Source of the DNA: a virus
Reading direction: 5' to 3' (one strand)
IMG/VR virus record: IMGVR_UViG_3300009182_000283
Location: 1 to 26,302 of that record
DNA: 26,302 bases
Position 1 is the first letter of the stretch. The number at the start of each line of letters is the position of its first letter. Positions 4,823 to 17,040 of this stretch are shown here, one piece after another. Both the position numbers and the translations under genes were made by a program. Below the pieces are notes generated by a model. It saw only the letters and a list, made by a program, of their open reading frames with translations. It made no database searches and was not told the origin of the DNA.

Positions 4823-6817
4823 ATGGGCTATAAAATAACAACAACAATTAATAAGGATACTAGCGAAGCTGGTAGACTTCAGCGTGTTGCTGCGTTTCAT
4901 GCTCAACAAGCTGCAGATACATCAAAGCTTAACACAGCAAATGATCAAATTGTTGCTGCAAGTAAAGCATCTCTTGCAGCACCCACTACCACGGCACCCG
5001 CCACTACAACACCTGCTACTACTACACCTACAACAGCTAATACTTCCACTACAAGTAGTGGTACATACAGTCAAACAACAGAACAGACAGGTACTACAGA
5101 TTATCAGCCTGCTGATGCCGCTGCAGCGGCTAACGAGGAACCAACAGGAGCTCGTAAAGGCAATACAAATGAAATTACTGCAGCACCAAGCTTAGTAGAT
5201 ATTGATTTAACGAGTAGCTATGAAGCACTATACAATAGTGATAACATGACAGTTAGCTCGGTATTTCCGCAAGAAGTTATATCAGAATCAGAAGTTCGAG
5301 CAGCAATTGAGTATAGAAACGCATTCAAGCAAGGTGATGTTATAACAGGAATTACAAAATTTAACGATAATTTAAATACTCAGTATTTTAATCAAGCAGA
5401 TTTCTCACTTGAAAATATTTTATACTGGTATCAAAAATTAAAGTGTAGTAATAAAGAAATTCTTTCCTACGTTTCAGAGTCATCATTTCATCAAAATAAC
5501 ATTTTATCAAATCAAATACCCGGAGCCGCTCTGTTCGCGCAAAATGTATTTAACGGCGGAGCGCAAGACCAAGCAAAATATTTTGATAATATGAGTGATA
5601 CTATCGGTGTGTTAGCTAACTCCAAATACCTACAGCTCGATACAACACTTCCTGTGTTTGATGTTAACCAAGCATATTACGGGGTACCGATTCCATATGC
5701 AGCTTCTATTGAGAGTAAAATGAGCGCAGCAGCTAGAAATGTTGCATACGACCTTAGTCATAAAACAACAATGGTCATGAGACGAAATTTAATGGGCGTC
5801 GCCTATACAAATGTTACTCTACAACAAAACATGGCCGCTGATGCTACAACATCGCACGGACTCAATCTTATAAACGATCTTCCGACGTTCGTTAATATTA
5901 ATAAAGAGTTAGCTTCTATAGCAGCAGCATTAACCAACGTATTTACAAACGCAAAGCTATATAGCTTTGTACAGTATATGTGTAATATTGCAAATGAGAC
6001 AGCAATGAATTTACGTGATATCTTTCCTGTTGCAGAAGATGATAAAGACTTTGTAGTTATTACATCAGAAGAAAGGGCTAGATCATCACAGGCCATAGCT
6101 AATCAAGAAGTACAAGCTGCACAAGCAGAGCAAGCTCTTTACGCGCAGCAACAAACAATGATAACAGCTGATATGGGTAGATATAATCCAAATATAGGCG
6201 CTAGACCATACGCTCCTAGCAGTGGCCAAGCCACGCAACCCGGCGACCCAGCAGCGTTAAATTATGACCCTAATACTGCACCATCTCCTATCACAGCAGA
6301 TATGGTCGAAGGAACAGGTCAAGTGACAGATCGTAACGTGTCTACGTATGGTGGTGCAAAGAGCGACTTCACAACGTACCTTGATATTAAGCCTCCAAGA
6401 CCGCAGGATGCAACAGATTATTGGGAAAGTAAAGGGTATAATATAGCTGCGCGCGAAGCTGAAATGCATAAAAATTATCCAGGATGGAAGCCAATTCTTT
6501 CGGAAGCCGATACATCAAGAGGTGCATACGTCGGTTCAAAACTCTCTGCTAATTTTGACGTAGCTGTTTCAAAATCATATGGATATCCACCAGGTACATT
6601 ATTAAAGATAACGGATTCAAAGGGTAACCCTGTTGGTGCAGCTGTTGGCAATAAGGATGGTATATTCCGTGTCGGTGATTGCGGTGGTGGAAGTCTTAAG
6701 AAACGAAATGCTCTCGACTTTTATACCGGCAACGATCCTAAAGTTGCAAAATATTATAACCAACTCGACAGTAAAGGCGGCGGGTTGAAAGTGGAGGTTG
6801 TTAAACTCAAAGCATAA
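4823..6817 (+). CDS. Baseplate/spike protein with C-terminal 3D-type (double-psi barrel) domain
   Basis: A 664-residue protein. Residues about 50-110 are a Thr/Pro/Ala/Ser low-complexity linker. Residues 130-430 are mostly helical and unassigned; 430-520 are Gln/Ala/Pro-rich. The last 96 residues (569-664) look like a 3D domain, the small double-psi beta-barrel related to MltA lytic transglycosylases: PPGTLLKITD, then GIFRVGDCGGG and NALDFYTG correspond to the family pattern 'PLGT...DTGG...IDVYF'. D619 and D632 match two of the conserved aspartates and D579 could be the third. It follows the hub gene, where T4 has gp5 with its lysozyme domain, so a role in cutting peptidoglycan during infection is a reasonable inference. 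Catalytic activity is not shown. Confidence 0.5.
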   Translation: MGYKITTTINKDTSEAGRLQRVAAFHAQQAADTSKLNTANDQIVAASKASLAAPTTTAPATTTPATTTPTTANTSTTSSGTYSQTTEQTGTTDYQPADAAAAANEEPTGARKGNTNEITAAPSLVDIDLTSSYEALYNSDNMTVSSVFPQEVISESEVRAAIEYRNAFKQGDVITGITKFNDNLNTQYFNQADFSLENILYWYQKLKCSNKEILSYVSESSFHQNNILSNQIPGAALFAQNVFNGGAQDQAKYFDNMSDTIGVLANSKYLQLDTTLPVFDVNQAYYGVPIPYAASIESKMSAAARNVAYDLSHKTTMVMRRNLMGVAYTNVTLQQNMAADATTSHGLNLINDLPTFVNINKELASIAAALTNVFTNAKLYSFVQYMCNIANETAMNLRDIFPVAEDDKDFVVITSEERARSSQAIANQEVQAAQAEQALYAQQQTMITADMGRYNPNIGARPYAPSSGQATQPGDPAALNYDPNTAPSPITADMVEGTGQVTDRNVSTYGGAKSDFTTYLDIKPPRPQDATDYWESKGYNIAAREAEMHKNYPGWKPILSEADTSRGAYVGSKLSANFDVAVSKSYGYPPGTLLKITDSKGNPVGAAVGNKDGIFRVGDCGGGSLKKRNALDFYTGNDPKVAKYYNQLDSKGGGLKVEVVKLKA

Positions 6818-6820
6818 ACT

Positions 6821-7975
6821 ATGGCTATTACAGATTTAACATTTAATAAAGCAAGCACGTTTCTAGATTTAGCTAAAAACGTGGCTCCAGGTGCTACTGC
6901 AAACCTTACAAGCCTACAGCCTGCTGTGCAGAGTCTTGTTGCAAACGATCCTACTAAATATCAACCAAGCCCAGAAGGCGCGCAAGCTCTACAGCTAAGA
7001 GCTCAAGGACAATATAGTAATAAACAAATTATAACACCCGTTAAATATCAAATTAACGTTGAAGGGACTTTTATTACTGTAGATCAACTTGGCAAACGTA
7101 TTGTAACAGATAATAATATGCCGTATAGAGAGATTAAGTCTCTCTCAGCAACAACTGTTACCATTAAGTCTATTAATGACCCTAGAGCTCTCGGCGAGAC
7201 AAGATCTGTTAAAGCATCTCCATCTGTCAACGCTGCAAGACAGATGTTTGATACCGGTACAAATGCTATAACAAATAGTCTTGGTAATAGATTCACACAA
7301 TATTCAAGTCAAATTCTTGATCAGGGATCTAAGGCTTTTACATTTTTACAAACAGGTAATGCTGGTGCACTACAGTCAGTTCCAGGCTTATCAGAGTTTA
7401 AACAGTCTATTAGCAAGTTACCAGGTTTATCAGTCGCTACGAATGCAGCAGGGCAGATACCAGGTCTTGCAAGTAGGTTGCCAAATCTAACAAATACACT
7501 CGCAAATCCTGTCGATGACGCCACTGGATTACTTGGTAAAGCAGCAACTGGATTAAATTTACAAGCTAAATTACCATCCGCAGATTTAGGATCCTTAACA
7601 GATGTATTTGGTGCTGCAACAGACATATTCCATAACGGCCCACCTACAAGCTTGACTGGTATAATATCTCTTGAAAAACAAGTTAAAGGTATAATCTGTA
7701 ATTTTAAATTACCTAATATAACAATGCCATCGTTTGATTCTCTTACAGATGTTAAATTTCCAAAACCGTCAGATCTCATTAAGCAACTTAAAAAAGCTGT
7801 AGAGGATGAAATATCAAATATTGTTAATAAGCTAGATATAAGAGAGCAACTTAAAAAGCTAATGGAAGAACTTGATCCTGAAAAACTTTACAATGCAGCT
7901 ATTAAGGAGATCACATCCTGTGATAATAGCCCTAATGCTGACAAAAATAAGAAGTCTGGTAAGTCAAGCAGCTAG
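6821..7975 (+). CDS. Unassigned virion/baseplate protein
   Basis: I do not recognise a family. The 384-residue product begins 3 nt after the 3D-domain gene and is the last of that unit, so it is probably another baseplate or hub-associated part. Residues 65-130 form a beta-rich segment (NKQIITPVKYQINVEG, TVTIKSIND). Residues 180-250 repeat short proline/glycine-leucine units (VPGL, LPGL, IPGL, LPNL) spaced by 10-17 residues. The C-terminal 60 residues are charged helices (KQLKKAVEDEISNIVNKL and following) ending in a Lys/Ser tail. It stops 2 nt before the stop of the opposing gene. Confidence 0.45.
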   Translation: MAITDLTFNKASTFLDLAKNVAPGATANLTSLQPAVQSLVANDPTKYQPSPEGAQALQLRAQGQYSNKQIITPVKYQINVEGTFITVDQLGKRIVTDNNMPYREIKSLSATTVTIKSINDPRALGETRSVKASPSVNAARQMFDTGTNAITNSLGNRFTQYSSQILDQGSKAFTFLQTGNAGALQSVPGLSEFKQSISKLPGLSVATNAAGQIPGLASRLPNLTNTLANPVDDATGLLGKAATGLNLQAKLPSADLGSLTDVFGAATDIFHNGPPTSLTGIISLEKQVKGIICNFKLPNITMPSFDSLTDVKFPKPSDLIKQLKKAVEDEISNIVNKLDIREQLKKLMEELDPEKLYNAAIKEITSCDNSPNADKNKKSGKSSS

Positions 7976-7977
7976 GT

Positions 7978-8442
7978 CTAAACTGGCTTATTATCGATAA
8001 GCTCCGCTTCGATGGGCTTTGACTTATCACTAAGCATTTTAAAGATATCTTCTCTCGTAGCAAGAAGCCGCTGCTTATTATCTGTTTGTTGCAATTCTTT
8101 CTTCGTAGCAATATCCATCTCTTTAAGCTTTATAGATGTATCAGCCCTTTTATCTGATATTGCAAGATGATTGAGAGAGTCAATCGCTGATGATGCTGCC
8201 TTTATTAATCCAGCTAAGGCATCAACATCCTCCGCGTTCGGGGCTGATATGATAAAATCCTTCACAGTAGCTATCATCTCAAGTGCATCCTCAACAAGAG
8301 CTCCTCCTTTCTCAATCGTAAATCGTTCTAAATCTTCTTTTTTTAAAGGATCTCTTTCTTGTTTTACTCTTTCTGTTTTAATGCTAACTGCTTGAAGCTG
8401 GTCAAGTAACGTGCCAACTTCGGTGTTTAAATTGTCATCCAT
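7978..8442 (-). CDS. Probable small terminase subunit, gp16-like
   Basis: A 154-residue, almost wholly helical, charged protein on the minus strand. Its layout resembles T4 gp16: a flexible N-terminus, a central helix pair (EDALEMIATVKDFIISAPNAED, then VDALAGLIKAASSAIDSLNHL) matching the gp16 oligomerisation region 'AAKIFLETAKNAD...MEVFATLMGQMTTTNREIL' in pattern, then a coiled segment with KEMDI and a short acidic tail. T4 gp16 is 164 residues. Small terminases bind the genome and regulate the packaging ATPase; the large subunit is not in this window. A late-type octamer lies upstream, as expected for a packaging gene. It could instead be another helical structural protein. Confidence 0.45.
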   Translation of the reverse strand: MDDNLNTEVGTLLDQLQAVSIKTERVKQERDPLKKEDLERFTIEKGGALVEDALEMIATVKDFIISAPNAEDVDALAGLIKAASSAIDSLNHLAISDKRADTSIKLKEMDIATKKELQQTDNKQRLLATREDIFKMLSDKSKPIEAELIDNKPV

Positions 8443-8452
8443 ACTGTAGTAA

Positions 8453-8460
8453 TATTTATC
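8453..8460 (-). promoter_or_regulatory. Late-type promoter octamer (GATAAATA)
   Basis: Read on the minus strand, GATAAATA ends 10 nt before the ATG at 8442. Spacing is longer than the 5 nt seen at most others, so the leader would be about 4 nt. The opposite-strand dUTPase gene shares this 59-nt divergent gap but has no octamer. Confidence 0.5.
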
Positions 8461-8501
8461 TACTATTGATTTTAATCAAAGGTATAGTATTATTGTCTTA
8501 T

Positions 8502-8951
8502 ATGTCTGATCCAAATATTCAATACCTACCGATTTTAAAGTTTGAAAAAACAAATGAGCTTGCTAAGCTACCAACGAAGAATCATGAATCCGACACGGGC
8601 TACGACGTTTATAGTGTCGAGAGCGTTGTTATACCAGCTCGTGGTAGCGGCGTTGTTAATGTAGGGCTTAAGTTTGCTTATATCCCTGAAGGATACTGGG
8701 TTAAGGTTGAAAGCCGCTCTGGTATGGGCTTTAAGCATAGCGTTCTAGCGCATCCCGGTATTATTGATAATGCCTATAGAGGTGATGCAGGTATTAAGCT
8801 TAATAATTTTTCTGATGTTGATTATGTCGTTAATGTTGGTGACAGAGTAGCACAATTTGTCGTTTATATGAATATTCATATGCCGGTAGAGTGGGGTAAG
8901 GCCGAAGCATCTGATAGAGGTGAAAAGGGGTTTGGTAGCTCCGGACGTTAA
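8502..8951 (+). CDS. dut: dUTP diphosphatase (dUTPase)
   Basis: Hydrolyses dUTP to dUMP and pyrophosphate, keeping uracil out of phage DNA and feeding dTMP synthesis. From the ATG at 8502 the 149-residue product has all five trimeric dUTPase motifs: DTGYDVYS (31-38), SRSGMGF (71-77), GIIDNAYRGD (86-95, with the catalytic Asp and Tyr), GDRVAQFV (113-120) and the glycine-rich C-terminal RGEKGFGSSG (about 139-148). Length is normal for the family. A TTG at 8466 would add 12 unconserved residues and was rejected. No late-type octamer lies upstream; the gene is followed after 4 nt by the clamp loader, so the pair is likely an early or middle replication unit. Confidence 0.93.
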   Translation: MSDPNIQYLPILKFEKTNELAKLPTKNHESDTGYDVYSVESVVIPARGSGVVNVGLKFAYIPEGYWVKVESRSGMGFKHSVLAHPGIIDNAYRGDAGIKLNNFSDVDYVVNVGDRVAQFVVYMNIHMPVEWGKAEASDRGEKGFGSSGR

Positions 8952-8955
8952 TTTA

Positions 8956-9888
8956 ATGAGTTACGACTTTAATAATATTTGGGTAGAAAAGCACCGTCCT
9001 CACACGTTTGATGATTTTGTTTGCTCGCCCTTTATAAAGGAAACTCTTCTTTCGTTTAAAAACAAAGATGAAATTCCGAATCTATTGTTTACCGGAGCTG
9101 CTGGTATCGGAAAGACATCTGCAGCTAAAATTATTGTCAATGATATTCTTGGATGTCAGTATCTCTATATTAATGCCTCTGATGAAAATGGTATTGATAC
9201 TATTAGACACAAGGTAGTTAACTTTGCACAGACGATGAGCATTGACGGTAAGATTAAAGTCATTATTCTCGATGAATGTGATGGTTTGTCAATTGATGCA
9301 CAACGTGCGTTGAGAAATACAATGGAAGAGTTTGCAGGTATTACGAGATTTATTTTAACTGCAAATTACAAGTACAGAATTATACCTGCTTTGCAGAGTC
9401 GTTGTCAGAATTTTGACTTGACACCGCCCATTGATCTTGCGATTAAAAGATGTGCTAGCATTCTAAAGAAAGAAAACGTTATTGTGCCTGATGATCAGCG
9501 AGTTAAGCTGGTAGAGTTTATTAAAGGGACATATCCTGACTTACGTAAGTGTATTAATGAACTACAGAAGTTTTCAGCGTCTGGTACTCTCGCATTGATA
9601 GATTCAAAAAATAACAAAGTACTTGAGCTTATTTTTAAGGAGGTAAAAAAGAAAAATGTCGAGTCTTTACGTCGCGCTTTAATTGAGAGTGAACATACAT
9701 TTAACTCGGATTATGTTTTATTACTTAGCAACCTATTTAACTATATTGATGAAGTAGAGACTAGCTCTGATCTTAAGAGATACTACTTACTAGCTATTGC
9801 TGAGTATCTGCATCGTTCAGCATTTAGTGTAGATCAGGAGCTTAACTGCTACGCCTGTCTTATACAGCTATCAGATATCAAGCTTTAG
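8956..9888 (+). CDS. 44: Sliding-clamp loader large subunit, gp44-like AAA+ ATPase
   Basis: Member of the RFC-small-subunit/T4 gp44 family, which opens the sliding clamp and loads it on primer-template DNA. The 310-residue product (T4 gp44 is 319) has a Walker A TGAAGIGKTS (46-55), a Walker B with IILDECD (103-109), the sensor-1 stretch FILTANYKYRI and the SRC motif (148-150) that supplies the arginine finger to the next subunit. The N-terminal WVEKHRPHTFDDFV is the standard clamp-loader opening. The start was placed at ATG 8956; a GTG at 8920 would overlap dUTPase. Its stop overlaps that of the opposing gene (9885-9888). The small subunit (gp62) and clamp (gp45) are not in the window. Confidence 0.92.
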   Translation: MSYDFNNIWVEKHRPHTFDDFVCSPFIKETLLSFKNKDEIPNLLFTGAAGIGKTSAAKIIVNDILGCQYLYINASDENGIDTIRHKVVNFAQTMSIDGKIKVIILDECDGLSIDAQRALRNTMEEFAGITRFILTANYKYRIIPALQSRCQNFDLTPPIDLAIKRCASILKKENVIVPDDQRVKLVEFIKGTYPDLRKCINELQKFSASGTLALIDSKNNKVLELIFKEVKKKNVESLRRALIESEHTFNSDYVLLLSNLFNYIDEVETSSDLKRYYLLAIAEYLHRSAFSVDQELNCYACLIQLSDIKL

Positions 9889-10478
9889 GGCAGATACGCT
9901 GCTGTATATGAAGCAGGGTCTTTATGATTAACAGCCGGTGATGAAGGAATGCTAATATTTGCATTCTTAAGTGTTCTATCACCTGCACCTTGCTTTCCAC
10001 CGCCAATGTCTGATGTACGGGTACGAGCTGGTGAGTAGAACGGTACTTCCTCAGCTTCATCCTTAACTTCAACAGGTTTAATATTAATTTTGTCTTTACG
10101 TTTATTTTTATCTGGTACTGGCTCAAGATTAGGCACAGTATCAATCTTTGTAAGTAATGCAGCTGGCACTATAGCGCTGTCACCTAATCTACCACCACCT
10201 GTGTCTGCGCTAACTTCAACAGTAAATTCAGGACCTGTATCATCAGGGTTACCAGCACCCATAACTGTTGGGTATTTGTTGACAACATTTGTTACTCTGA
10301 GCGTATAACCCGAATCAATTATTGATTTGATGTTTTGTACAACAGTATCTGGTTGTGTTTTGAAAAACGGATTCTTTAAAGCCCCATCTACAAACTTAAC
10401 AATATCACCGACAAGAAACCCACCATGGTTGCTTCTTTTTAACCAACTTTCATACAGTGTTATAAAACGCTTTTTCAT
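9885..10478 (-). CDS. Unassigned late-type phage protein with SH3/KOW-like start
   Basis: I do not recognise the family with certainty. The 197-residue product opens with MKKRFITLYESWLKR followed by GGFLVGDIVKFVD (residues 19-31), a strand pattern like KOW or SH3-type barrels. A second beta stretch lies at YTLRVTNVVNKYP (58-70). The C-terminal half is charged and proline-rich and likely disordered, ending in a tyrosine/alanine tail. A late-type octamer 7 nt upstream places it with virion genes; a small head or tail decoration part is possible but not shown. Confidence 0.5.
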   Translation of the reverse strand: MKKRFITLYESWLKRSNHGGFLVGDIVKFVDGALKNPFFKTQPDTVVQNIKSIIDSGYTLRVTNVVNKYPTVMGAGNPDDTGPEFTVEVSADTGGGRLGDSAIVPAALLTKIDTVPNLEPVPDKNKRKDKINIKPVEVKDEAEEVPFYSPARTRTSDIGGGKQGAGDRTLKNANISIPSSPAVNHKDPASYTAAYLP

Positions 10479-10485
10479 CTATTAT

Positions 10486-10493
10486 TATTTATT
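10486..10493 (-). promoter_or_regulatory. Late-type promoter octamer (AATAAATA)
   Basis: Read on the minus strand, AATAAATA ends 7 nt before the ATG at 10478. It forms a divergent pair with the octamer at 10536-10543 in a 70-nt gap. Confidence 0.5.
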
Positions 10494-10535
10494 ACTTATG
10501 GTCCATTAAACCAATTACTCAAACAAAGAAAACAA

Positions 10536-10543
10536 GATAAATA
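10536..10543 (+). promoter_or_regulatory. Late-type promoter octamer (GATAAATA)
   Basis: GATAAATA ends 5 nt before the GTG start at 10549. It likely drives the gp25, gp6 and gp7-like genes, which are joined at 1-nt gaps or overlaps. The gap upstream carries the opposing octamer. Confidence 0.6.
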
Positions 10544-10548
10544 TATAT

Positions 10549-11058
10549 GTGGCTACTATCAAACTTCAGTCATTAACCGAGCAACCTACTAAATCCATTA
10601 AGGGATATACGTATAATGACCTGCATTTAGATTTTACCCCTGTATATAATAATACTGCATTTGGAGGATACACGCAAAATAACGAGCTATTAAGAGTACA
10701 GGAAATAATAGACATTTTAGCAGATTATGACTTAGGTGCTATAAAAAATTCACTTACAAATTTATTTTTGACTATACCAGGTCAAAAAATTCTTAATCCG
10801 TACTTTGGTCTAAACTTAATGCAATATGTATTTGAGGCCTGCGACGAAGATACAGCGAATTTAATCGGCAATCAAATTGTAAGCGGCATTACAACGTTTG
10901 AGCCACGTGTAAATTTAAACAAAGTCAGAGTCGTTGCTGACCCTGAAAACCATCAGTACGATATTATTATTTCTTTTTATGTGCCAACCCTTGGTACAAC
11001 TAGCTTTCAACTCTTCGGCACATTAAGTACTTCCGGAGTCGTTTTAACAACACAATAA
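10549..11058 (+). CDS. 25: Baseplate wedge protein, gp25-like (GPW/gp25 family)
   Basis: A 169-residue wedge protein of the GPW/gp25 fold, which in contractile tails joins the wedge to the sheath start. Visible family features are NNELLRVQEIIDILADYDLGAIKNSLTNLFLTIPGQKILNPYFGLNL (about 42-90), whose P-G-(Q/E)-x-x-x-x-P-x-F-G core is diagnostic, then FEPRVNLNKVRVVAD (about 122-136) and beta strands. T4 gp25 is 132 residues, so this one has a longer N-terminus. The start is GTG at 10549; a nearby ATG at 10547 is in another frame and stops quickly. It is followed 1 nt later by the gp6-like gene, the usual 25-6-7 order. Confidence 0.85.
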   Translation: MATIKLQSLTEQPTKSIKGYTYNDLHLDFTPVYNNTAFGGYTQNNELLRVQEIIDILADYDLGAIKNSLTNLFLTIPGQKILNPYFGLNLMQYVFEACDEDTANLIGNQIVSGITTFEPRVNLNKVRVVADPENHQYDIIISFYVPTLGTTSFQLFGTLSTSGVVLTTQ

Positions 11059-11059
11059 C

Positions 11060-12919
11060 ATGGCCACAAATAATCAATTTAATGACTTTAACCTGCCTGT
11101 CGATGGATATGCAGCGTTCGACGCTCTAAGTCTCAAGAATCTTATAATTAAACGTTTAAATTCTTCAAACTCTTATACAGATCAAAAATATGAAGGCAGT
11201 AACCTCTCTTCAATAATTGATATTATTGCATATTCGTATCATATCCTTTTATTTTATCTAAACAGAACAAGTGCTGAGAGTACATTTACAACGGCAGAAT
11301 TGTATGAGAATATTAATAAGATTGTTAAGTTAATCGGATACAATCCAGTCGGCTATCAAACAGCTATTCTACCGTTTAAAGCTACCGGTAATCAAAATCT
11401 CCCTGCTGGGACATATACTATACCGAGATATTCATACTTTAATGTAAATGGAACTGGATACGTGTTTAATAGCGATGTTACTTTTACAAAGAACACAGAC
11501 GCAGCTGCTAATCTAACAGACTTACAGGACAACAATTTATTATATCAAGGCACATATACTGAGTATCCTACATATCTTGCTACAGGAGCGCCTCTCGAGG
11601 TACTAACACTTACAGTTGTAGATCCAAGCGGTAATAATGTTCTCATTGATCACTTTAATATAGATGTTTACGTAAGAAGTAGTTTAGCTAATTCAAAGTG
11701 GGAAAAATGGCAGCCAACTCAGTCACTATTTTTAGAAAAAACAAACGCCACACGATATGAAATTCGCTTAAACGAAAATGGGAGATATGAAATTAAGTTT
11801 GGTAATAATGTTACCGGCAAGCAACTCGATCCCGGGTCAGAAGTAGCTGTATACTACATCCAGTCAAACGGCTCGAAAGGTGAAATCGGACCCGGATTAC
11901 TTGATCATAAGCTACTTTCGTTTTATAGCACAGCAAGATTTAACGCAATTAAAGCAGATACAATTTCACCAAATTTAAGAATAATTAAAACAACAGAAGT
12001 TGCTAATATTACTTTTTCAAATGTAGATAGCTCTACAAAATTTGTCGATATTGAAAGTATAGCTAGTATTAAGAGCAACGCGCCTAATACTTTTAGAAGT
12101 CAGTTTAGACTTATTACTGCAGATGACTTTACGAATTATATAAACAAAAATTATAGCAATATTATTGCGTCAACTCAGGTTGTAAATAATTGGGATTATA
12201 TATCTGGGCATTTAAAGTATTATTTCGATCTCGGAGTGAATACACCGAATATACAATCACGTGTGCTATACAATCAGGTAAAATTTGCTGATTCAAGTAA
12301 TTTTAATAACGTCTACGTTTACGCGGTACCAAAGCTTGCTAAAACATCCTCCGTAACAGCACGTACCAATTATTTAAATAACGCGCAAAAGCAGTTAATC
12401 TTAAATGACCTACAAGATGTTAAGTTAACAACAGCTGAATTAATCGTAAACGACCCTGTGTATATAGAAGTCGATCTTGGTGTGCGTAATCCCCAGGAAG
12501 ATCTAGTCCCGAGTATTGGTGACGAAACAACACTCGTTATTAATCGTGCAATTACCTCAAAAAGAGATGCCACTTTAATAAAGCAATTAGTTGCCGGTGT
12601 TATTACAGATTATTTTGCCACGACAAAGGATAATTTAGGATTGTCGTTAAGTATTACCGATCTCACAAATCAAATACTCGCAATTGACGGTGTTGACGGT
12701 GTATCTACACAAAGAACGATTAACGGTCAGTTATACAGTGTACCGGGAATTAGTTTAATAGCATATAATCCTATATACCCATATGACGATATTAACATTT
12801 ACGCACAAGACGTCAAACTACCGTATTTTAAGTATCCATACTTAAAAAATACACTAGATTTCATTAATAAAGTGACAGTGGTGACGACATCGATCCAAAC
12901 CCTGACTAGAGAGTTCTAA
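11060..12919 (+). CDS. 6: Baseplate wedge protein, gp6-like
   Basis: A 619-residue protein of the gp6/baseplate-J type; T4 gp6 is about 660. In T4, gp6 dimers form the inner iris that changes shape on tail contraction. Family features: an N-terminal helical region (IIDIIAYSYHILLFYLNRTSAESTF, about 52-76) with the common pattern 'Y..H...FY.NR...E.FL.TA', then KIVKLIGYNPVGYQ (about 86-99). A central barrel carries RYEIRLNENGRYEIKFGNNVTGKQL. The C-terminal region has PVYIEVDLGV and the ITDLTNQILAIDGVDGV motif found in J-type proteins. It sits between gp25 and the gp7-like gene, and its stop overlaps the next ATG by one base (TAATG). Confidence 0.82.
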   Translation: MATNNQFNDFNLPVDGYAAFDALSLKNLIIKRLNSSNSYTDQKYEGSNLSSIIDIIAYSYHILLFYLNRTSAESTFTTAELYENINKIVKLIGYNPVGYQTAILPFKATGNQNLPAGTYTIPRYSYFNVNGTGYVFNSDVTFTKNTDAAANLTDLQDNNLLYQGTYTEYPTYLATGAPLEVLTLTVVDPSGNNVLIDHFNIDVYVRSSLANSKWEKWQPTQSLFLEKTNATRYEIRLNENGRYEIKFGNNVTGKQLDPGSEVAVYYIQSNGSKGEIGPGLLDHKLLSFYSTARFNAIKADTISPNLRIIKTTEVANITFSNVDSSTKFVDIESIASIKSNAPNTFRSQFRLITADDFTNYINKNYSNIIASTQVVNNWDYISGHLKYYFDLGVNTPNIQSRVLYNQVKFADSSNFNNVYVYAVPKLAKTSSVTARTNYLNNAQKQLILNDLQDVKLTTAELIVNDPVYIEVDLGVRNPQEDLVPSIGDETTLVINRAITSKRDATLIKQLVAGVITDYFATTKDNLGLSLSITDLTNQILAIDGVDGVSTQRTINGQLYSVPGISLIAYNPIYPYDDINIYAQDVKLPYFKYPYLKNTLDFINKVTVVTTSIQTLTREF

Positions 12920-15900
12920 TGTCTTATAATATTGATACAACATATGTGTACTTTAGTGTAACAGACTATTCTAATAGTCCGGTTCTTTCGTCCTACACAC
13001 TTGATATTACCCCTTTAACGTTTGTACCTAATTTTAATACGTCGCCCTTATTATCAGCTGTCAATAGCATTTCTAATAAAAATATAAAATGGGATTTTGG
13101 CGATGGAACGTTTTCAACAGAATTACGCCCGCAGCATGTCTACAAATGGCCAGGTCAGTATACTGTCAGTCTTACAGTCTTTGATACATATGGAAAGGCA
13201 TTTGACAGTCAGTACAGTACAACAGTGTATATTTATGATTACATTTCAACGCAAATTGCTTTTCGTGAATACAGTGGTCTTATCTATGATGTACCAGCTG
13301 GTCGACTTGTGTCACCATTAAATGTTGATGTACATACAAGTTGGCAAAACTATCAGGAATTAAGCGGTGCCGGTGTTACAATCAATTTATACGCTTCCGG
13401 AGCGAGAGGAGATTATAATTACGTACCTGCAACTCTGAATGACAAATGGTCGCATTTAAGATCACTTAGTAGATTTTACAAGCAAGTTCAGAATGACGAT
13501 ATGTCAACAGAGTATGTTGAAATAGATAGCTTGTCAGCAACTCAAACAGAAATATATGTAAAGCTTAATAGTCGCACTTTACAAAGATGTTCATCCACTG
13601 ACACAGGTAGTGTATTAGCTGGTGTTACAGGTACATGTGAATTTTGGTACACAGATGATAAGCCTGGTAATTTAAGAACAGATAATAGCCCTGTAATACT
13701 CCTTGCTACGCTCGATAATACTAAGTTTAAGGATGCATTTACTCAACGAATAGATGCTTACGGTTCTATAAATTATCCACCTGCAGGATTTCAAAATTTA
13801 AATCCTGCAGTCTTTCCTGTCGTAAAAATTAGATTTAACCCTGCAGATCATTTAGCAATTACAACCACAGGTATAGATGCTAATGGAGCAGATACCGCAA
13901 CAGGATTTAATATTCCAGAAATTAGTTGGCAACAAACAGAAATACCCTTTGTTGTCACCTTTAAAGATAGTTATGGATATACAACAAAAAACTATCCACC
14001 GCTTTCGTCGTCGGCTGCTATCAATACCAAGATATCACCTACAACTTATTGCGATGTGCAGGCAGGTATAGTACAGCTGTCTGGTAACAATTATATACCT
14101 GTCGACGGTGTTGAGTTTTACGAAGACTTTAACGCTCAGGTACCGCAATCTTTAGGTGCGTTTTATAAAGGATATTTTATTCCATCTTATTCTACAGAGA
14201 ATTGCTTATTAACGGCAAACGTAACAGTCCTTGAACCAGCACACTATCCAAAAGACGCCTTATTAGGTTGGATAGCAATGCCTCAATATAATATTGCACA
14301 GAGAATATTGCGTCAGGAATACTATAGTGGTGTTGATCATTCAAAAATTATAACTTTTGCAGAGCCTGGCTCACAATTTCCTATTAATAATGAGAGGAAT
14401 ATATATGCTATCACTGTTGCACCATCAGGCGCTGGCGGTGAAAATGATTATCAGACTTGGTTTGCTGACGCTGTTAATGATCGTATTCTTAAATTTGATC
14501 TATACGGCAATCAACTTACCGATACATATTACCTATCTGCAATGCCGACGCTAACAAATAATCAAGTCGCGCCGGTGGATTATCGCAACTCACTCTCAGC
14601 TACTGAGTTTGTAAATAGCGCTTCACCAAACTGTATGGCCCTTGACGGTGAAAATAATCTCTGGGTAACACTTCTTGATAGTGGCACTGCTTTAAAAATC
14701 GACCCTGCTCGTGGTGTCGTTGTTGCAACAGCTGTTCCATACAATATTTCTAACGTAGCGTATACAAAAAGTACAGATTACTTGCCACATAAGGGATTTG
14801 TAGGTGAAGGGCTTATCTTACCTTCTTCTATTGATACAGATTTAGAAAATAACGTTTGGATTACATATAATCACCCTGAGTATAGTGCTCTTGTAAAGTA
14901 TAGAGGAACCAACAATTTTACAACCGCAGCTGAAATTCTCACATCTGTGTTTTTCCCATCAAACTTTACACCAAATGAAGTATGCGTTGATAGAAACAAG
15001 AATGTATGGGTTACTGTTGTAAATTACAATAATAGAGGACCGGTGTTTGAAGAAAATAATGACTACCTATACAAGTTTGATTCTACCGGAAAAATTGCAC
15101 CTGGATTTCCGTTAAGCGGATTTAACGGAATTGGTAATTTAATTGTAGATGGTAATCAAAATGCTTGGGTTTCACATCACCGTGAAACACTATCAAAGAT
15201 CGACAACATTACAAATCAACGTATTGACTTTAAGGGCGGAACGGGCTCCAACACATCTGATTACATCTGCAGTATCGGTGGATTAACATGCGATACATCA
15301 AATAATTTATGGGTAATTAATAACTATGACAATACACTATACACGATTAATGCTGCTGGTGGCCCAACGCAACAATTAGCGTATTTAAATAAGATTGATC
15401 TTACCTATCCTAATACCACTCTACCTGTAATTACATCATATAATTATTTTCAGCTTCCTGGAAGCAATCTTTCATATCCTTCTGCTCTAACAAACTTCGC
15501 TACCGTAGATGACCCAGGATTTGTGTACGGCTTCAATGTTGTATTAAGTGCCGGAAAAGCTCTTGACTGGACAAATCATGCGACACGTCTTTACGGCAGC
15601 GGTTACGCTAATTTTAATCAATATAATATTTTAACTAACGAAGTATATACCCCTTATACCGCTAGCGTTTACGTTAGTCCAAGCGCAACTGCAGCAAACG
15701 GAATACTTCGTGTAATACTAGCATGTAATAATGGAGATCAAGCAGTTGCTAATTTCAATACAACAACCAATGCTGTTTATACATCAACAGGTGGAAGCGG
15801 AGTTAGTGCATTAACAGCGACTGTATCTTATACCAACGTAGGTAATTGGTATCGTGTAAGTATAACCGGTATGTTTCCGGTTGCTACACCGTATTTCGGA

Positions 15901-17040
15901 CTAGTATTAGATAGTCAAAGCGCTCCTATCGATGTACAAGTATGGGGCGGGCAGATTGAAAAGAGTAATACGATGAATAATTTCGTATATACAACAACAG
16001 CTGCTGTGCTTACTAGCTTTACTACTCCAAGCCTACAGACACCAATTCCAGTTAACGAGTACAGCGACGGCTTTCAAGAATTTCAAGCATACGGTGATTG
16101 GAATGGATATAGATGGATTAACAAATATATGGTACCTGTTAACACGGTGCGCACTATAACAGGCTGCTCAAATTTATTCAATATATATCCTGCAGATGGA
16201 AAATATAACGTTTCAAAAGTCAATGAAAATTGGGACGCAGCAGGTTTTTATGATTCTTTAAGGTTTCAAGAAACATTATTAGACAAACAAGTCTTTTTTG
16301 ATCAATTTCTCGGAGTTATTGTCGGTAAGTCTGATGCTCAACCATATGAATTGGGTAAGACAATATATGAAAAAGTTGCTAATTTTGTTGAAAATAGAGC
16401 AGACGTAGATAGAGTCAATCTTGATGCGTTACTTTCACTTTGTAAAGAGCTAACTGTGGATTTTGAAAAATATAACTACCTTTTACCACCTCAGTTAAAA
16501 CGTCTCACCGATATTCTTTCTATCAAGCAAAGCATACTATGGGGTACAAGAAATAAGTACGCGTTAAATTTTGATAACCGTGGCACACAATTTCCAAATG
16601 ATACATATGGTATTAATTTAAGCTCAGCAATCGATGTATTTACCGGTACTATTACCTCAGGGGTACCTATTGTCGCATATGAGACATTCTCTGGAATTTA
16701 TAAGGTTGTTAATACAAATTATATTACGGATCCTGGGACAGTTCACCCTCTATCAACTTATAGTCTGTCCTGGGGATGGGAGCTTACCGCTCCAGAATCA
16801 ACTTCCGGACCAGCTATAGGATCCTATTATCAGTTCTTTCATTACAATCCATCATATAGCGACATTTTCTATAATAATATTATAGATTGGGAAAACCCAT
16901 TAACGACCTTAACACCTGAAAATAGTGCATATGATACATGGAGCAATGATAACGGTATTATGCAAAATATGTTAAGTTACGAAATAACAAAAGGGTTTCA
17001 ACTTTTTACATCTGCCGTTAAAATCACTTATAACAGCTAA
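12919..17040 (+). CDS. gp7-like baseplate wedge protein with PKD, beta-propeller and beta-sandwich modules
   Basis: A 1373-residue multidomain protein following gp6. Near the N-terminus is a PKD domain (about 52-107) with the hallmark WDFGDG at 58-63 and the later HVYKWPGQYTVSLTV. Residues about 500-830 contain at least five NHL/Vgb-type propeller blades, each with a D-x-x-x-N-x-(V/L/A)W(V/I) core (near 574, 635, 685, 740 and 788). Residues about 870-1015 form a beta-sandwich with YTASVYVS and NWYRVSITG...VQVWGGQIE, a pattern common in phage carbohydrate-binding modules. The C-terminal 290 residues, with LLPPQLKRLTDILSIKQSILWG and PIVAYETFSGIYKVVNT, are the likely wedge-anchoring core. T4 gp7 (about 1030 residues) occupies this map position. 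The gp7 assignment is mostly by position. Confidence 0.6.
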   Translation: MSYNIDTTYVYFSVTDYSNSPVLSSYTLDITPLTFVPNFNTSPLLSAVNSISNKNIKWDFGDGTFSTELRPQHVYKWPGQYTVSLTVFDTYGKAFDSQYSTTVYIYDYISTQIAFREYSGLIYDVPAGRLVSPLNVDVHTSWQNYQELSGAGVTINLYASGARGDYNYVPATLNDKWSHLRSLSRFYKQVQNDDMSTEYVEIDSLSATQTEIYVKLNSRTLQRCSSTDTGSVLAGVTGTCEFWYTDDKPGNLRTDNSPVILLATLDNTKFKDAFTQRIDAYGSINYPPAGFQNLNPAVFPVVKIRFNPADHLAITTTGIDANGADTATGFNIPEISWQQTEIPFVVTFKDSYGYTTKNYPPLSSSAAINTKISPTTYCDVQAGIVQLSGNNYIPVDGVEFYEDFNAQVPQSLGAFYKGYFIPSYSTENCLLTANVTVLEPAHYPKDALLGWIAMPQYNIAQRILRQEYYSGVDHSKIITFAEPGSQFPINNERNIYAITVAPSGAGGENDYQTWFADAVNDRILKFDLYGNQLTDTYYLSAMPTLTNNQVAPVDYRNSLSATEFVNSASPNCMALDGENNLWVTLLDSGTALKIDPARGVVVATAVPYNISNVAYTKSTDYLPHKGFVGEGLILPSSIDTDLENNVWITYNHPEYSALVKYRGTNNFTTAAEILTSVFFPSNFTPNEVCVDRNKNVWVTVVNYNNRGPVFEENNDYLYKFDSTGKIAPGFPLSGFNGIGNLIVDGNQNAWVSHHRETLSKIDNITNQRIDFKGGTGSNTSDYICSIGGLTCDTSNNLWVINNYDNTLYTINAAGGPTQQLAYLNKIDLTYPNTTLPVITSYNYFQLPGSNLSYPSALTNFATVDDPGFVYGFNVVLSAGKALDWTNHATRLYGSGYANFNQYNILTNEVYTPYTASVYVSPSATAANGILRVILACNNGDQAVANFNTTTNAVYTSTGGSGVSALTATVSYTNVGNWYRVSITGMFPVATPYFGLVLDSQSAPIDVQVWGGQIEKSNTMNNFVYTTTAAVLTSFTTPSLQTPIPVNEYSDGFQEFQAYGDWNGYRWINKYMVPVNTVRTITGCSNLFNIYPADGKYNVSKVNENWDAAGFYDSLRFQETLLDKQVFFDQFLGVIVGKSDAQPYELGKTIYEKVANFVENRADVDRVNLDALLSLCKELTVDFEKYNYLLPPQLKRLTDILSIKQSILWGTRNKYALNFDNRGTQFPNDTYGINLSSAIDVFTGTITSGVPIVAYETFSGIYKVVNTNYITDPGTVHPLSTYSLSWGWELTAPESTSGPAIGSYYQFFHYNPSYSDIFYNNIIDWENPLTTLTPENSAYDTWSNDNGIMQNMLSYEITKGFQLFTSAVKITYNS

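Follow-up and report, generated by a model that had tools for sequence, protein, structure and literature searches.

A modular Ig/PKD and beta-propeller protein encoded directly after gp6 in an uncultured T4-related myophage, a candidate baseplate wedge-region protein

The baseplate wedge contains a heterotrimer of composition (gp6)2-(gp7)1 (PMC6300606). The gp7 gene follows gp6 in T4, the order is gp25-gp6-gp7 in Ochrobactrum phage OC, and in S-ShM2 gp25 and gp6 are followed by a giant protein with a gp7 core. Pelagi- and cyanomyophages are reported to lack T4 gp7, for which VrlC seems to substitute (PMC7029224), and this provides a precedent for divergence or replacement at the gp7 position. 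Baseplate proteins with surface-binding-like domains are a known theme for which precedents exist. The wedge protein Gp119 of Bacillus phage Vp4, which has CBM folds, decorates host cells, whereas its CBM-less homologue in Deep-Blue does not (PMC11406892). In phage E217, the baseplate triplex protein gp45 is the anchor of the tail fibre (PMC10329688).

Here we describe a gene, P0001, in a 26,302-base viral record (IMGVR_UViG_3300009182_000283, the whole of which is called the window below). The local gene order is gp25-gp6-P0001-P0003 (Table 1); by profile and sequence matches, the identification of gp25 and gp6 upstream of P0001 is secure. P0001 is directly after gp6, the slot that gp7 occupies in cyanophages and an Ochrobactrum phage. 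The original prediction described its product as a gp7-like wedge protein expanded with PKD, propeller and carbohydrate-binding-like modules. The protein is real and modular, and we conclude with moderate confidence that it belongs to the structural proteins of the wedge region of the baseplate, in an uncultured T4-related myophage, and that surface-binding-like modules are inserted into it and exchanged.

Table 1. Features of the P0001 locus and of two relatives (coordinates of L009 and L039 are those of their own loci)
Feature	Position	Strand	Residues	Description and evidence
gp25 (baseplate wedge)	10549-11058	+		PF04965, E 1.6e-13; phrog_261, E 8e-25
gp6 (baseplate wedge)	11060-12919	+		phrog_219, E 3e-46; tblastn matches gp6 of cyanophages and of an Ochrobactrum phage
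P0001, whole gene	12919-17040	+	1373 aa	Single uninterrupted ORF; Ig/PKD array, propeller, beta-sandwich insert, conserved C-terminal domain; wedge-slot structural protein
PKD domain	13057-13218	+	~47-100	PF18911, E 1.8e-11; PF00801, E 2.5e-9
Further all-beta, Ig-like domains	13249-14247	+	~111-443	AlphaFold2 model of L069, Foldseek matches, inserts
Six-bladed NHL/Vgb-type beta-propeller	14401-15420	+	~495-834	Profile, AlphaFold2, Foldseek, blade motifs
Accessory beta-sandwich insert	15445-16038	+	~843-1040	Gap in relatives, L090 match, E217 gp45 match
Conserved C-terminal domain	16072-17037	+	1052-1373	Helices, then mixed beta part
P0003	17059-20163	+	1034 aa	Next gene after P0001, conserved partner in relatives
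L009 member	5785-9306			Natural pair with L039, differing by one lectin-bearing insert
L039 member	8977-13263			Natural pair with L009, differing by one lectin-bearing insert

Elsewhere in the window, the frame at 9-1541, open at its 5' end, encodes a tape-measure-like product with several degenerate hydrophobic repeats (PVIG..I..G.AI.DGNW...L) and a short stretch that matches phage peptidase/endolysin PHROGs (E 5e-12). Two minus-strand genes (7978-8442 and 9885-10478) are found within the plus-strand structural block, and relatives have frames of similar length at the matching places. Genes for a dUTPase and a clamp loader (8466-9888) are likewise embedded among structural genes.

A profile scan of IMG/VR recovered at least 80 loci encoding P0001 relatives, some overlapping an earlier locus set and most of them near full-length matches. 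Searches of 50,697 phage records by tblastn with P0001, P0003 and two distant family members gave no match, and no P0001 relative was found among the isolate phages in these records. P0001 has no match in PHROGs; the PHROG matches elsewhere in the family are isolated and weak, and we judged them to be due to chance. In the relatives, the order gp25-gp6-P0001-P0003 is kept as far as each locus extends: the P0001 homologue follows the gp6 homologue, and the P0003 homologue comes next in nearly all loci long enough to include it. This order holds even where the gp6 homologues are less than 40% identical. We infer the virion location of P0001 solely from this gene order. It seems very unlikely to us that the gene lies beside gp6 by chance and that P0001 acts apart from the baseplate, as an adhesin, whisker or decoration protein. 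Many phages do have Ig/PKD proteins as decorations on their capsids and tails, and a fold search of a viral library (BFVD) returned one full-length, PKD-containing family member from an uncultured phage, the remaining matches being weak and mostly to Ig-like proteins. However, the P0001 start codon begins on the final base of gp6 and so overlaps the gp6 stop, and this overlap, the order kept across diverged gp6 homologues and the strong conservation of the C-terminal domain all argue for a baseplate protein.

The PKD domain expected near the N-terminus is present (44.4 bits, against a curated cut-off of 27) and was found in 40 of the 40 family members scanned. When genome contigs were scanned, the best 80 matches lay over the PKD region and on cellular contigs, with no recognisable family member and no clue to the host among them. 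The region that follows is predicted to be a series of Ig-like domains, a reading judged from the AlphaFold2 model of a propeller-less relative, L069 (mean pLDDT 77.6), whose Foldseek matches in the PDB are dominated by Ig folds.

Downstream of this array, repeated four-stranded blades, each with a blade motif, identify a propeller. The six motifs (W514, 582, 647, 697, 750 and 798) agree with the original prediction of five or more NHL/Vgb-type blades. A profile of five family members matches Pizza6 chains (E 3e-16) and PknD (E 7e-9), and the region has about 24 strands in the AlphaFold2 model, with pLDDT mostly 80-96. Foldseek aligns it to Vgb lyase with a TM-score of up to 0.73 by target and to NHL and Pizza6 structures with scores of 0.55-0.65; a closed ring is predicted from the pLDDT and TM-scores. 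P0001 has the same fold and blade motifs as the NHL and Vgb lyase propellers. Vgb lyase is an enzyme, whereas the residues that are invariant in the propeller alignment lie at blade-repeat positions, so that no catalytic set is suggested. The best Foldseek match is PDB 1l0q, a tandem propeller-PKD structure from an archaeal surface layer. Both proteins pair a beta-propeller with PKD, but 1l0q is a cellular surface protein with a YVTN-type propeller, and the phage C-terminal domain is absent from it. The propeller is missing from L069 and L081 only, which form a two-member sister lineage with intact frames of 725 and 726 aa; it is therefore not required for assembly in every member of the family.

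The third predicted module, a beta-sandwich containing YTASVYVS...VQVWGGQIE, is supported by strands that AlphaFold2 places, with moderate confidence, between about residues 889 and 1008. It falls in a gap in all aligned relatives, and of the relatives examined L090 alone has it (68% identical to the window within the insert and 59% over the whole protein). In a tree of gp6, the closest partner of the window is L008, which is without the insert, and L090 groups with L012 and L013, a distribution that implies at least two changes of state. The description of P0001 as expanded therefore holds for the beta-sandwich and fails for the PKD domain and the propeller, which are ancestral parts of the family and were not added onto an already known wedge protein; the beta-sandwich is the sole extra. 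A Pfam search with the window insert matched no CBM family. The insert is similar to E217 gp45 (E 8.8e-4) and to E217 gp46, annotated 'baseplate wedge 2' (E 1.1e-3; PDB 8env and 9b45), and shares with both the beta-sandwich motif IDVxxWGxQIE...TxxxYxxTT. Only the insert matches, and the remainder of P0001 is unrelated to these proteins at the sequence level.

Lectin- or CBM-like modules are exchanged between close relatives. The P0001-family proteins of L009 and L039 align over 1174 residues with 91.7% identity, and their gp6 proteins are identical at 601 of 622 positions. L039, but not L009, carries an insert of 255 aa that includes a Laminin_G_3 lectin domain (E 9.3e-19) and is located inside the Ig-like region at the equivalent of P0001 residue ~389. 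Other members vary elsewhere: L031 contains an additional 118 residues in the propeller region, L085 an N-terminal extension and L070 (8998-13536) a glycine-rich, collagen-like C-terminal extension of ~370 aa. In L035 (8980-14067), the conserved C-terminal domain is followed by a long Pro/Thr-rich repeat linker and an RCC1-like repeat, possibly a second propeller. The inserts and losses in L009/L039, L069/L081, L090 and the others indicate a stable scaffold on which accessory modules come and go.

These modules may face the host or other parts of the virion. It is possible, though doubtful in our estimation, that the propeller, Ig array and insert dock other virion proteins, such as tail fibres or pins, and not the host. 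Protein binding is a general property of propeller and Ig folds, and almost every member has the propeller. In T4, gp9, gp10 and gp8 are bound by gp7 (PMC3004832), and the E217 protein that the insert resembles, gp45, anchors the tail fibre (PMC10329688). On the other hand, L069 and L081 manage without the propeller, and the lectin/CBM-like inserts vary among near-identical relatives, which would be unusual for internal scaffolding.

The propeller differs from the C-terminal domain in conservation. Identity within the family is highest in residues 1100-1215 (mean pairwise identity 0.495, compared with 0.344 for the propeller), and this drop from the C-terminal helical part to the propeller is as expected for an anchor and an exposed part. 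It is this C-terminal part for which similarity to a gp7-type core had been set beforehand as the test of the gp7-like label, and none was found at the sequence level. With hhalign, the P0001 family and its C-terminus gave probabilities of ~1% or less, both against T4 gp7, Ochrobactrum p050 and the cyanophage giant protein and against a 60-sequence gp7 profile; in the same comparisons the gp7 controls find each other with E 5e-5 to 2.5e-16. The Pfam gp7 models PF21427, PF21456, PF21428 and PF23786 do match T4-type gp7s and Ochrobactrum p050 but have no match to P0001 at E up to 1. At the level of structure, T4 gp7 is absent among the 50 PDB matches listed for each of the P0001 and L069 models, although those lists are crowded with Ig and propeller folds. 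The family C-terminal profile was found in none of seven gp7-type records, in a search without its own positive control. The gp7-like identification comes from gene position.

There are nevertheless likenesses between P0001 and gp7, whether that of T4 or the PF23786-type of cyanophages and Ochrobactrum phage OC. Both are large, multidomain proteins encoded after gp6, and the N-terminus of T4 gp7 weakly matches fn3, an Ig-like domain. They differ in that P0001 matches no gp7 model or profile and has an N-terminus of PKD and NHL propeller; the phages that carry them are different as well. Among the gp7 proteins themselves, a profile search of PDB sequences gave no propeller match for T4 gp7, although most of the T4-type members examined have one Asp-box-like motif, and the gp7 core of the S-ShM2 giant protein (L087) is split, with profile matches at residues 4-107 and 671-812. 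In one PF23786-type gp7 (L168, 3749-7072), the C-terminus resembles Laminin_G_3 at a score that does not reach the curated cut-off (E 2e-4), and true gp7s may also carry lectin-like domains.

On these comparisons, P0001 would either have replaced gp7 or be a gp7 that has diverged beyond detection. In the second case, its C-terminus would be a gp7/TssG-type core within the (gp6)2-(gp7)1 heterotrimer that sequence methods fail to see. The gene position behind gp6, which matches that in T4, S-ShM2 and Ochrobactrum phage OC, and the build of the C-terminus, a helical stretch and then a mixed beta part, speak for such a protein. So does the failure to recognise a gp7 elsewhere in ten large relatives: PF23786 matches four of four gp7-type control records and none of the ten, whose contigs may be incomplete, and searches with phrog_17744 and Ochrobactrum p050, which lacked a working control, found nothing. 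The four unmatched Pfam models and the hhalign results beside their positive controls argue against it, and we regard a highly diverged true gp7 as a tentative reading with a low, though real, chance of being right. Since the sequence tests for gp7 fail while their controls work, we refer to P0001 as a protein of the wedge slot and take its ancestry as unproven.

The gp7 core might instead be carried by P0003, in which case P0001 would be an extra protein placed between gp6 and gp7. P0003 has no Pfam, PHROG or isolate-phage match, and in distant relatives both of its ends are conserved and its middle is variable. Its N-terminus alone gives a gp7-profile signal, a weak one (E 0.0098, probability 4%) that falls on the matching N-terminal part of the profile. 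We followed this hint to the alignment and did not count it as evidence: the conserved gp7 motif could not be placed convincingly, and the Pfam gp7 models do not match P0003. We consider this arrangement clearly unlikely.

Returning to P0001 as a wedge-region protein with its own surface-binding modules, the conserved C-terminal domain would dock on the wedge (gp6/gp25), and the Ig/PKD array and six-bladed propeller would extend outward to form a platform. The lectin- or CBM-like modules that are inserted into this region, among them the beta-sandwich of the window, would most likely bind host-surface glycans or proteins, adding to adsorption by tail fibres. A lectin-like fold alone is no proof of sugar binding; in E217, the role of gp45 is to anchor a tail fibre. 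The recent gain or loss of the lectin domain, the variable insert and the literature precedents lend indirect support to the original suggestion that the baseplate may have its own host-surface binding sites. Vp4 Gp119, set beside P0001 by description, is also a wedge-region protein with carbohydrate-binding-like folds that a related phage lacks; it differs in that its cell binding has been tested and that no propeller is reported in it. A further-reaching reading, which we think rather unlikely, is that gp7 was replaced by an unrelated Ig/PKD-propeller protein that is both a wedge subunit and a built-in receptor-binding platform, with lectin modules swapped independently of the tail fibres, in a widespread uncultured T4-related lineage.

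The L009/L039 pair, near-identical but for one lectin domain, makes host recognition by the baseplate testable. If the proposed role is right, host recognition would be encoded partly in the baseplate, and host-range prediction based on tail fibres alone would miss it; the gp7 slot would then be a core baseplate position that is held by different proteins.
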